Shown here: piece after piece, positions 35,686-39,399 of the stretch
Numbering within the stretch: the first letter of the stretch is position 1
How the letters are laid out: every line of letters begins with the position of its first letter
From: an uncultured Lactobacillus sp.
GTDB lineage: Bacteria; Bacillota; Bacilli; Lactobacillales; Lactobacillaceae
Assembly (NCBI RefSeq): GCF_944327175.1
Contig: NZ_CALVGT010000017.1
Location: 106,072 to 170,071 of the forward strand
Direction: 5' to 3'
DNA: 64,000 nucleotides
Made by a program: the position numbers and the translations under genes
The notes under the pieces: model-generated
What the model was told of the DNA's origin: nothing
The model's database searches: none
What the model saw: only the letters and a program-made list of their open reading frames with translations

Positions 35686-38088
35686 TTACTTGTCCAGGCC
35701 AGTCCACTTCCAGGAAGTTACTTCTGGAATGTCTTCACCGTGGTCCCGGATGTAAGCGTGGTGCTTGGACAGCAGGCTGTCCATCTTGTCGATGAAGGCA
35801 GCACTCTTGTCCTTCAAGGCAGGAATTTGTTCAACCGCGTCCTTGGCCAGGTCGAAACGGTCAAGGTGGTTCAAGACCCGCATGTCAAATGGCGTGGTAA
35901 TGTCACCATTTTCTTCATAGCAGTGGATTGAAACGTTGTAACGCTTGCGGGCAAACCAAATAGATTCCATCATGGTCTTGTAGCCGTGCCATGCAAAAAT
36001 AGTTGGCACGTCAGTTGGGAAGAGGCGGTCGAATTCTTCCTGGGAAATAGCTGCTGGGTTATCCTTTGGCGCCATCAGCTTCATCACGTCAACCACGTTG
36101 ATGTAACGGATCTTCAAGTCTGGGAAGTTCTGGTGCAGGATGTCGATAGCTGCCAGGGTTTCCATGGTCGGTTCAGTTTCAGTTGAAGCAAAGACCACGT
36201 CTGGCTTGGCATCCTTGTCAGTTGAAGCCCAGTCGATGTAGCCCAGGCCATTGTCAACCAACTTGGCTGCTTCTTCAGGAGTGAACCATTGCGGCCGTTC
36301 CTGCTTGGAAGTTACCAGCAAGTTGATCCCCTCCCGGTCCCGGAAGGCCTTGTCAGCAACAGCCAGCAAAGTGTTGGTGTCACTTGGCAGGTATTCGTGG
36401 ATCATGTCCGGCCGGTTCTTTTCAAACAAGTGAGTCAAAAGACCTGGATCCTGGTGGGTGTAGCCGTTGTGGTCCTGCTGGAAGACAGTTGACGTAGCTA
36501 CAAAGTTCAATGATGGGTAATCGCGGCGCCAGTATTGTTCCTTAGCCTTCCGCAGCCACTTCATGTGCTGGGTCAGCATGGAGTCAACCACCCGGCCAAA
36601 AGCTTCGTAAGTAGCGAAGAAGCCGTGCCGGCCAGTCAAAACATAGCCTTCCAGCATCCCTTCATCTTGGTGCTCTGACAATTGTGAGTCAATCAAGCGG
36701 CCTTGCGCAGCCAGATTTTCATCGTTTGGTTCGTGGATTTCACTTTCCCATTGCCGCTTTTCGCTGTCCAGGAAGTCAAAGAGCCGGTTGGACTTGGATT
36801 CGTCCGGGCCAAAGCCCCGGAAAGTAGTCGGGTTCAGTTCTGCCACCTTGGTTAGGTACTTGGCCCATTCCACCATATCCTGGGCGTTCTTGGAGCCCGG
36901 CTTGCCAACTTCAAAGGCAAAGTCGCGCCAGTCCGGCAGGTTCAAGCGCTTAGGATTGATCCCCCCGTTAGTAACTGGGTTCATGGCCATTCTTTGGTCA
37001 CCGTGAACCGCGTTTTCCAGGACCAAGTCAGTCGGGTAGCCGTTTTCGTCAAACAGTTCTTCCGGCTTGTAGCTCTTCAGCCAATCCAGCAACAGTTCCT
37101 TGTGGTCCATGTGCTTCTGGTCAACCGGAAGCGGAATCTGGTGGGCCCGGAAGGAGTTTTCAATTGGGTTGCCGTCCAAATCAACCTTAGGACCAGTCCA
37201 GCCCTTCGGGCATTGGAAGATCAAAAGCGGCCAGTGGGCAAATGATTCATCGCCGTTTTCCCGGGCATTCTTTTGAATAGCCTTGATGTCTTCGATAATG
37301 GCGTCCAGGGTCTTGGCCATTTCTTCGTGGATCTGGTCAATGTCCTTCATCCCGTCAAAGCGGCCGCCCTTGAAAGTTGAAACGAAGTAAGGCTTCCAGC
37401 CCATGCCTTCAAAGTACTTAGTCAGTTCTTCATCGCTCATGCGGGCAGTAATGGTTGGGTTGGAGATCTTAAAACCGTTGATCTGCAGGATTGGCAAGAC
37501 AGCCCCGTCCTTGACCGGGTTGATAAAGCGGTTGGAGAACCAGCCAGCAGCCAGCGGGCCGGTTTCAGCTTCCCCGTCACCGATTTCAGCCGCGGCAATC
37601 ACGTCCGGGTTGTCCAAAATCGCGCCAGTCGCGTGCGACAAAGTGTAGCCCAGTTCCCCGCCTTCATGGATTGAGCCAGGGGTTTCCGGAGCCGCGTGGG
37701 AAGCTACCCCGCCCGGGAAGCTGAAGCGCTTGAAGAGCTTGGCCATCCCAGCTTCGTCTTGGCTAATTTCCGGGTAGATTTCAGAGTAAGACCCGTCCAG
37801 GTATGAGTTGGAAACCATCACCTGGCCGCCGTGACCGGAACCTTCAATGTAGAACATGTTCAAGTCATACTTCTTGATAACCCGGTTTAAGTGGGCGTAG
37901 ATAAAGTTCTGCGGCGCGATCGTGCCCCAGTGGCCAACCGGCTTGATCTTGACGTCGTCTGCCGTCAGTTCTTCCTTAAGCAAGGGGTTCTTGAGCAGGA
38001 ACAACTGGCCGACTGACAAGTAGTTGGCGGCCCGCCACCAGGCGTCAACGCTCTTTAAGTAGTCTTGTGAATCATAATTTACAACCAT
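35686..38088 (-). CDS. xpk: Phosphoketolase (xylulose-5-P / fructose-6-P)
   Basis: TPP enzyme that splits xylulose-5-P with phosphate into acetyl-P and glyceraldehyde-3-P. The 800-residue length and motifs [55 protein letters not shown] and [12 protein letters not shown] match the family. AAAGGAG precedes the ATG. Its own promoter (38129-38157) lies behind a repeat array and the GntR gene. With rbsK, rpe, rpiA and nucleoside hydrolase upstream it completes a route from nucleoside ribose to acetyl-P. Confidence 0.97.
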
Positions 38089-38237: not shown

Positions 38238-38540
38238 TGCACAAGAGTTGACTCAACTGGAAGCCTTTTAAAAAAATCATACTCACGATCTTACTCAACT
38301 AGCGAAAATCGTGCTCACAAACTTACTCAAGTAAAAAAATGGTTGCACACGAATTTACTCAACTAGAAGCTTTTTTAAGAAATAATGCTCACGATCTTAC
38401 TCAACTAGCGAAAATCGTGCTCACAAACTTACTCAAGTAAAAATAGATGAGTAAGTTTCTGAGTTACATTTCTGCAATTTTGTAAACAGTTGAGTAAGTT
38501 TCGGGTTGGGACAGTCGTTACTTGAGTAATTTTCTGTGCA
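38238..38540. repeat. Array of nine ~19-bp repeats with helical phasing
   Basis: Consensus TTGAGTAAGTTTGTGAGCA. Six copies on the minus strand lie at 38238-38256, 38280-38298, 38312-38330, 38344-38362, 38386-38404 and 38418-38436; three on the plus strand lie at 38447-38465, 38490-38508 and 38522-38540. Start-to-start distances are 42, 32, 32, 42, 32 and then 43, 32 bp, close to 4 and 3 helical turns. Spacers differ, though copies 2-3 and 5-6 belong to a 106-bp tandem duplication. A degenerate tenth copy may lie at 38545-38563. No ORF fits. Confidence 0.85.
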
Positions 38541-38640
38541 TCCCATCCCCCGACTCGACTCAACCAAGCCTAGTTTACATACTTCGGGGGCAAATTTCGC
38601 CAAAAATTAGACCGGTTGACATACTCCGACTTCACCAAAA

Positions 38641-38671
38641 CAAAAAGACCAAGATCTTCCGATCTTGGTCT
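38641..38671 (-). terminator. Terminator of the gntR-type gene
   Basis: Perfect 11-bp stem AGACCAAGATC / GATCTTGGTCT, loop TTCC, T5 on the minus strand. Confidence 0.88.
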
Positions 38672-38676
38672 AATAC

Positions 38677-39399
38677 TTAATTCAAATTGACGAAGCTGTT
38701 GAAGCGCATGTACTTGTAGTGAACCCGCATGCTAGAGACTTCAAATGGCGTGCCATCATCCAAAAAGAAGATCCCGTCCATCACGCCGACCGGCTCTGTA
38801 GCCTTGAGCTGCAGCTCTTCTTGGTCTTCCGCGCTTGAAGGGGAAACCGTAATGGTCAAATAAGACCGGGTAACCGCCTTGTTTTGCGCGTCTTCCAGGT
38901 AATTGAACAAGGACCCCTGCAGAATTTCCTCTTTAAGCTCCGGCAGGATCTTGATCGGCACGAAGCCCTCTTCAATCAAGAAGGGCTGTCCGTCCAAAAG
39001 GCGGAGGCGCTTGAACTGGTAGACAAAGTCATTTTCACTCAAGAAGAGGTCCTGGGCCGTTTCCGGGCTGGCCTTAACCACCTTGAAGTCCAGCAGCTTG
39101 ATCCCCTGCTTCTTGCCTGGCGCTAAAAAGCTGTCCGTCAGACCCAGGTTTGACCCTTCATAACGGAACATGGCCTGGTTCTTCAAGTACAAGGGATTGA
39201 TAAAAGTCCCGCTGCCCCGCTTCTTAAACACAATGCCTTGCTGGGCGAGGAGTTCCAGGGCCCGCTTCATCGACGACCGGCTGACCTGATACTGTTCGGC
39301 CAGGCTGCGCTCGTCGGGCAGCCGCATCCCCTCATATTCGCCCGCTAAAATCCGGCGTTTGATGTCATGCATGACCGTCCGGTAAACATAATCAGCCAT
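38677..39399 (-). CDS. GntR family transcriptional regulator (HutC/UTRA type)
   Basis: 240 aa. N-terminal winged helix (residues 1-70: DERSLAEQYQVSRSSMKRALELLAQQGIVFKKRGSGTFINP) and a C-terminal UTRA ligand domain (ending in PFEVSSMRVHYKYMRFNSF). Its ATG begins 8 bp after the nucleoside hydrolase stop, so both are one transcript. It lies between nucleoside/ribose genes and phosphoketolase, suggesting that it controls this pathway with a sugar phosphate or nucleoside as signal; this is inference. Confidence 0.92.
   Translation of the reverse strand: MADYVYRTVMHDIKRRILAGEYEGMRLPDERSLAEQYQVSRSSMKRALELLAQQGIVFKKRGSGTFINPLYLKNQAMFRYEGSNLGLTDSFLAPGKKQGIKLLDFKVVKASPETAQDLFLSENDFVYQFKRLRLLDGQPFLIEEGFVPIKILPELKEEILQGSLFNYLEDAQNKAVTRSYLTITVSPSSAEDQEELQLKATEPVGVMDGIFFLDDGTPFEVSSMRVHYKYMRFNSFVNLN

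Follow-up and report, generated by a model that had tools for sequence, protein, structure and literature searches.

Phased site arrays in the chromosomes of some closely related lactobacilli, probable docking sites for an unusual initiator-nuclease fusion protein

Regularly spaced sites of one family are dispersed in the chromosomes of a small group of closely related lactobacilli, and these sites are probably docking sites for an unusual fusion protein that combines a plasmid-copying part with a DNA-cutting part. One array of the family lies in the 64-kb stretch of DNA analysed here (the window), in which an earlier note had described nine 19-bp repeats between the genes of a GntR-family regulator and a phosphoketolase (xfp). 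We consider it rather likely that this array is a gene-less solo copy of a chromosomal iteron element, with docking sites for a NERD-Rep3 protein on one helix face. That sites of this kind are bound by a NERD-Rep3 protein is, judging from sequence comparison, likely. Iterons and a Rep_3 initiator form a classic combination in plasmids. If the reading is true, iterons linked to a nuclease fusion and distributed as ordered chromosomal arrays would represent a new way for components of plasmid replication to turn into elements of the chromosome, and the NERD-Rep3/iteron system would be a non-transposase counterpart of REP-RAYT. Since the site-protein pairs are short and defined, their binding, cutting and spread are directly testable. 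Among the papers listed by literature searches on L. delbrueckii or L. equicursoris repeats and on NERD domains with iterons or initiators, none described this system, and the available passages of two L. delbrueckii genome papers (PMC4082628, PMC5345009) do not mention these arrays.

Sites and layout of the window array

The nine 19-bp sites are present as the earlier note described them. Six lie on the minus strand (sites 1 to 6, at 38238-38256, 38280-38298, 38312-38330, 38344-38362, 38386-38404 and 38418-38436) and three on the plus strand (sites 7 to 9, at 38447-38465, 38490-38508 and 38522-38540), with steps of 32 or 42/43 bp and one of 29 bp; the successive start-to-start distances are 42, 32, 32, 42, 32, 29, 43 and 32. 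Sites 2 to 6 belong to the alpha class (classes are introduced below). Sites 3 and 6 are exact copies of the consensus, and the 19-mer of site 5 occurs twice in identical form in the array beside a NERD-Rep3 gene on contig C14. Site 7 opens the inverted block, and site 8 is of the beta class. Sites 1, 8 and 7 are degenerate, having 5, 6 and 4 mismatches, respectively, when compared with whichever of two consensuses is closer. With 10.5 bp to the turn, the nine sites fall at 0, 4.0, 7.05, 10.1, 14.1, 17.14, 19.9, 24.0 and 27.05 turns, which bears out the helical phasing that had been proposed.

At up to three mismatches, the consensus occurs six times in the window, always inside the array, while 100 shuffles gave a mean of 0.03 and a maximum of 1 copy, none equalling six. 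The nine sites are not independent of one another, because sites 1 to 6 sit in a tandem duplication (38238-38443) made of two 100-nt copies that are 91% identical and 106 bp apart. The element also extends beyond the nine sites to about 38634, adding sites of two further classes: a gamma site from the site scan (site 10, 38545-38563, minus), which the earlier list lacked, and two degenerate epsilon sites on the plus strand, one 29 bp from site 10 (site 11, 38574-38592) and one seen by eye 42 bp past site 11 (site 12, 38616-38634). The 29-bp step from site 10 to site 11 is the one found in 17 of 18 gamma/epsilon junctions. The step from site 6 to site 7 is likewise 29 bp, as in the L. equicursoris counterpart, which is about one turn less than the 40 bp of 14 of the 15 alpha/beta junctions.

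Two open reading frames on the minus strand flank the element and lie outside it, xfp (35686-38088), whose start codon is 150 bp from the array start, and the GntR-family regulator (38677-39399). A hairpin with a T-run, found by script and in the sequence (38642-38671, minus), stands 3' of the GntR gene and is directed into the array. There is no Rep_3 initiator gene beside the window array itself. The exclusion of CRISPR in the earlier note holds, as spacers recur between units and the array direction inverts. An RNA element was also considered and rejected, Rfam having given no match at gathering score within arrays at 11 loci. As RNA, the window array folds better than its shuffles on both strands (z -4.15 and -3.73), as inverted repeats usually tend to do.

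Architecture and distribution of the arrays

Scanning of the fetched stretches with hand-typed consensuses, which favour the motif, gave 548 units in five classes (alpha, beta, gamma, delta and epsilon). The fullest elements run from alpha sites on the minus strand through alternating beta and delta sites on the plus strand to gamma sites on the minus and epsilon sites on the plus strand. Up to four blocks of alternating direction thus follow one another, joined at almost constant distances; many arrays carry just some of these blocks. The longest unbroken block has 23 sites. Neighbouring sites are 42 bp apart in 138 of 150 epsilon and 120 of 123 gamma steps, and 32 bp apart in 71 of 88 alpha steps and in all 23 beta-to-delta steps; from delta to beta the step is 43 bp in nine of 12 cases and 42 bp in three. 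All 12 alpha steps of 33 bp belong to one array (L093:3462-4222), where they replace the 32-bp step over 12 successive intervals. Tandem copying by itself keeps a period, and spacing also varies, as in this array. In the first 20 positions, gamma and epsilon units carry 1.62 and 1.68 bits per column, versus 0.88 and 0.79 in the remainder, values to be read with the bias of typed consensuses towards the motif. Two period-42 arrays (L086:4124-4744 and L087:1241-1513) yield open frames with a 14-residue repeat, which could be mistaken for genes.

Arrays of this kind might be an ordinary minisatellite or a non-autonomous transposon (MITE or BOX-like) that fills intergenic DNA without a binding protein. 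Homogenised units and three-unit (126-bp) higher-order repeats are indeed present, and among 12 arrays whose two neighbours are clear, three are set between convergent genes and none between divergent ones. The MITE-borne minisatellite BrickBuilt is a precedent in the part of PMC4596501 that was available. BOX of pneumococcus and BrickBuilt of Porphyromonas are likewise modular and intergenic, with variable numbers of tandem core units; however, the passages and abstract at hand (PMC3049150, PMC4596501) give no linked initiator-nuclease gene, and the elements described here have up to four alternately inverted blocks joined at near-constant distances. Against a minisatellite or MITE stand junction lengths that hold while the sequence changes, a motif conserved above its spacer (although the scan itself favours the motif), and the linkage of arrays to all eight Rep_3 fusion genes described in the next section; we give it little probability. 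In a few flanks read by eye, which offered no clean empty site for comparison, no target-site duplication was seen.

Epsilon sites were suspected to resemble the ends of IS3-type elements. An IS3-type transposase-like frame does lie by one array of genome G001, but by eye its ends differ from the repeats, and this candidate was rejected. Three elements of the same genome (L177, L179 and L180) terminate in inverted epsilon sites.

The array is not private to phosphoketolase. In the 1.72-Mb genome of the window (G000), the same consensus at up to three mismatches occurs in 26 places, compared with none for the reversed control. These places make up five arrays of the window class: two on contig C14, one after murC and one after the next gene; one between tyrS and tRNA-Thr; one between thrB and tRNA-Lys; and the window array (the names murC, tyrS and thrB come from reading translations). 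A regulatory role as an enhancer or operator array for phosphoketolase or GntR, the proposal of that note, agrees with the position between the two genes and so close to the xfp start. However, the same class of array stands at the unrelated genes just named, the same xfp-GntR pair lacks an array in G011, G032 and G001, and the window array lies just past the terminator-like hairpin after GntR. Neither the enhancer nor the tie to the adjacent GntR protein survives these comparisons well, and we hold a regulatory array to be very improbable. By eye, within 90-600 bp, no array was seen at murC in G011, G032 and G001, or at tyrS or thrB in G011 and G001.

L. equicursoris DSM 19284 (G012) has many more arrays of this class than G000. 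The near-consensus pattern at up to two mismatches matches in 11 of 75 Lactobacillus genomes, with more than two matches just in G000 (23) and G012 (46). In the genome_contigs collection, which may lack records of the window's genome or of one very close to it, the tandem alpha pattern was found in L. equicursoris only. Epsilon sites at up to two mismatches number 221 in G012, 42 in G001, 2 in G011, 1 in G000 and none in the other 71 genomes. G011 holds only a remnant (two gamma and two epsilon sites, with no NERD-Rep3 gene), and in G032 sites occur only at the level of chance matches. The earlier note had named two things that would speak against its proposal, unconserved spacing and copies scattered as random filler. 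The spacing is kept in L. equicursoris; copies do occur in several unrelated intergenic regions, yet they are ordered, unlike random filler.

The fetched G012 stretches contain 28 clusters, some of which may be the two ends of one array split at a contig end. Contigs C104, C119, C127, C140, C157 and others of G012 start or stop inside an array. Arrays break draft assemblies of this clade, and draft genomes may in consequence undercount them.

The NERD-Rep3 genes and their linkage to arrays

Between the two C14 arrays of G000 lies a gene (L009:6587-8188) for a 534-aa protein in which a NERD nuclease domain (residues 86-194, E 2.4e-11) is fused to a Rep_3 initiator. In this alpha-linked protein, Rep3 WH1 covers 294-419 (E 2.7e-14), and WH2 is weak (433-489, E 0.0014, under the Pfam cut-off). 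Rep_3 initiators are a family that binds plasmid iterons. Full- or near-full-length relatives occur in three of the 75 Lactobacillus genomes only, G000 (2), G001 (2) and G012 (4), one G012 member having a shorter frame of 490 aa. The eight fusions are 35-97% identical to one another; at E 0.01, NERD (PF08378) is detected in all, Rep3 WH1 (PF01051) in seven and WH2 (PF21205) in four. Among the matches listed from a second sample of 397 family genomes, which do not include G001, such relatives occur just in G000 and G012, and the 17 other matching genomes were NERD-only or Rep-only. E90, D129, E142 and K144 are invariant in all eight fusions, and we take them to be the nuclease core of the NERD fold. 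Comparison of the fusion by sequence with solved structures gave no match at E 0.01.

All eight fusion genes lie by a phased tandem array with a period of 31, 32/42-43 or 42. Within 450 bp, self-matching of seven of them peaks at 31, 32 or 42 on at least one side, higher than any control value (at most 0.38); at the eighth (G001 C12), array and gene are separated by a repeated segment of 1.6 kb that contains a transposase-like frame. The array comes within about 30 bp 3' of the stop codon in six genes and about 165-210 bp before the start in four. The repeat types differ between genes: alpha/beta/delta arrays on both sides of the C14 gene of G000; epsilon/gamma arrays by the G012 C150 gene and, beyond the insertion, the G001 C12 gene; period-31 repeats by the G012 C104 gene; a type named zeta plus a second period-42 repeat by the G000 C5 and G001 C15 genes; and two further period-42 types, on both sides, by the G012 C143 and C130 genes. 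In each of two cross-species gene pairs that are 97% identical, both members have the same type of repeat. At up to three mismatches, zeta sites number 60 in G001 (about ten places, one by the gene) and 6 in G000 (five by the gene, the sixth a lone match with three mismatches away from it). None was found in G011, G012, G032, G035, G043 and G004, although the reversed pattern, used as a control, matched 0-3 times there, and none of these six genomes has the zeta-linked gene type.

Genes with only one half of the fusion served for comparison. The stretches fetched for nine relatives whose match is confined to the NERD part contain no phased array; three of these stretches have a short two-copy repeat. 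At Rep_3-only loci, 22-bp iterons stand beside the gene in 11 of 16 cases, and three of the five genes without iterons are no more than about 110 bp away from a contig end. As the three gene-bearing genomes are near relatives, co-occurrence of gene and array is weak evidence by itself. The suggestion in the earlier note of a dedicated DNA-binding protein or iteron-like element is favoured by arrays of the same class flanking a gene with a Rep_3 domain and by spacing held across loci and species, so far as sequence alone can indicate. Cognacy of the alpha type in L. equicursoris is only putative: this species has most alpha sites, yet no NERD-Rep3 protein closer than 52% to that of the alpha-flanked G000 gene. 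In the proposed mechanism, a NERD-Rep3 protein (an iteron-binding Rep_3 initiator preceded by a NERD nuclease domain) would dock on the window sites, with a stoichiometry that is equally presumptive; bound arrays may pair or loop by handcuffing, like Rep-iteron complexes; and the NERD domain may nick or cut DNA.

The nearest known arrangement is the origin of Rep_3/pUCL287-type theta plasmids, where a Rep_3-type initiator likewise stands beside helically phased direct repeats. In the lactic-acid plasmid pRC12, for example, a passage of PMC7117683 describes 4.5 repeats of a 22-bp motif. Such origins have a period of about 20-22 bp (two turns) and 3-5 copies, whereas the periods here are 31, 32 and 42-43 bp (three to four turns) and blocks reach 23 sites. 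The arrays also differ in their chromosomal neighbours, inverted multi-class blocks, the N-terminal NERD domain on the protein, and the existence of gene-less solo arrays; a Rep_3 initiator is present at the gene loci only, with the WH1 and WH2 detection given above.

An anti-plasmid or incompatibility system would use the same parts differently: the protein would recognise and cut the iterons of incoming Rep_3 plasmids, and the chromosomal arrays would titrate or handcuff the protein and invading initiators. The conserved nuclease-type residues would suit this role, a genome whose paralogues each have different repeats would gain more than one specificity, and DNA homologous to the Rep part occurs in 1334 plasmid records (annotated rows among those shown are labelled replication initiation protein). 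By BLAST within set limits, neither the window array nor three gene-adjacent array types matched any of 72,556 plasmid records, PADLOC returned nothing for two of the fusion proteins, and many self-sites would invite self-cutting; we consider defence against plasmids unlikely. Carriage of the arrays by phages or plasmids was also rejected, the window array having no match in phages either and three array patterns none in viral contigs. Viral contigs contained no NERD-Rep3 relative, the Rep part gave one match in phages, and in no plasmid record does one place cover 80% of the fusion. The neighbouring genes look chromosomal.

Alternatively, arrays at many loci could be an architectural scaffold that organises chromosome loops, either through bridges formed by paired Rep-iteron complexes or through binding of gyrase or a nucleoid protein, as in BIMEs. 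They are ordered, phased and dispersed, and often lie by terminator-like hairpins; a hairpin and T-run directed at the array stands within 200 bp at 41 of 56 ends, by a simple script run without a control and with some weak cases. Handcuffing by RepA and binding of gyrase by BIME-2 are described in passages of PMC4857107 and PMC2817692, respectively. Yet G032 lacks sites beyond chance and G011 has a remnant only, and a general protein would leave the gene linkage and the matching of types unexplained. A scaffold is rather improbable in our estimate. Both the anti-plasmid and the scaffold role are compatible with binding by NERD-Rep3.

Dispersal and exchange

Among dispersed repeats, the arrays are most readily compared with REP/BIME-RAYT, in which a gene is also flanked by repeats on which it presumably acts and copies are dispersed in extragenic DNA. 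Hybrid arrays that mix the repeats of two paralogues are known there too, from a passage of PMC2817692. REP/BIME units are palindromic and alternate, whereas here each block consists of direct phased sites and the blocks alternate instead; the REP partner is an IS200/IS605-like RAYT transposase of the Y1 type, the linked gene here is NERD-Rep3. By analogy with REPs around the RAYT gene, arrays flanking the gene may have seeded the dispersed arrays, and recombination would then preserve or spread these. That the many copies are due chiefly to selfish or REP-like dispersal has, in our view, somewhat less than an even chance. More tentative still is a fuller scheme, in which plasmid-type initiators armed with NERD maintain and copy iteron arrays of their own and spread them through the chromosome and between species, each paralogue having its own repeat type, and arrays diversify by duplication of gene and iterons and co-assemble into composites.

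In G000, the flanks next to the arrays differ in their likeness from the DNA farther away. Away from the array, 100-bp windows of murC, tyrS and xfp in G000 are 91-100% identical to G011 and 72-93% to G012. The window closest to the array reverses this, with 98% identity to G012 and 67% to G011 on the tyrS side, and 96% and 62% on the xfp side; beyond the stop codons G011 is largely unrelated, and low values there mean only that G000 and G012 share something absent from G011. At thrB the shift is gradual, G000-G011 identity falling from 97% to 82% and 65% and G000-G012 ending at 90% and 96%. In murC, the final G011-like site lies 8 bp before the gene end, and every later informative site is G012-like. 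The array-side part common to G000 and G012 is more alike than their coding DNA, and right of C14 the two are 89-100% identical over 2 kb. The flank of G000 thus turns L. equicursoris-like beside the array at all four loci. Co-conversion of flanks during allelic spread of a homing-endonuclease-like element might leave such a pattern, but ordinary recombination also explains it, and the likeness extends at least 2 kb to the right of C14. The G012-like flanks in G000 make it probable that lineages have exchanged both arrays and flanks.

Some solo arrays may be remnants. After murC, L. equicursoris has one array only, which matches the first C14 array at its left end (200/208) and the second at its right end (105/114). 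Recombination between the two flanking arrays would produce this arrangement, or it may be the state that preceded an insertion. The flank of a G001 solo array is identical at 106 of 117 positions to the DNA that separates array and gene in L. equicursoris. A fixed polarity of arrays relative to genes, suggested by the five G000 arrays, is broken by L088, L091 and L093 of L. equicursoris and was dropped. Close by two gamma/epsilon arrays of G001, whose flanks are common to both loci, Rfam places the COG3610-DE RNA (RF03066; L177:4318-4434 and L180:3272-3388). Past the second C14 array (L009:8720-9800), G000 genes that read as MarR-like and transporter-like seem broken, the frames in L. equicursoris being longer.
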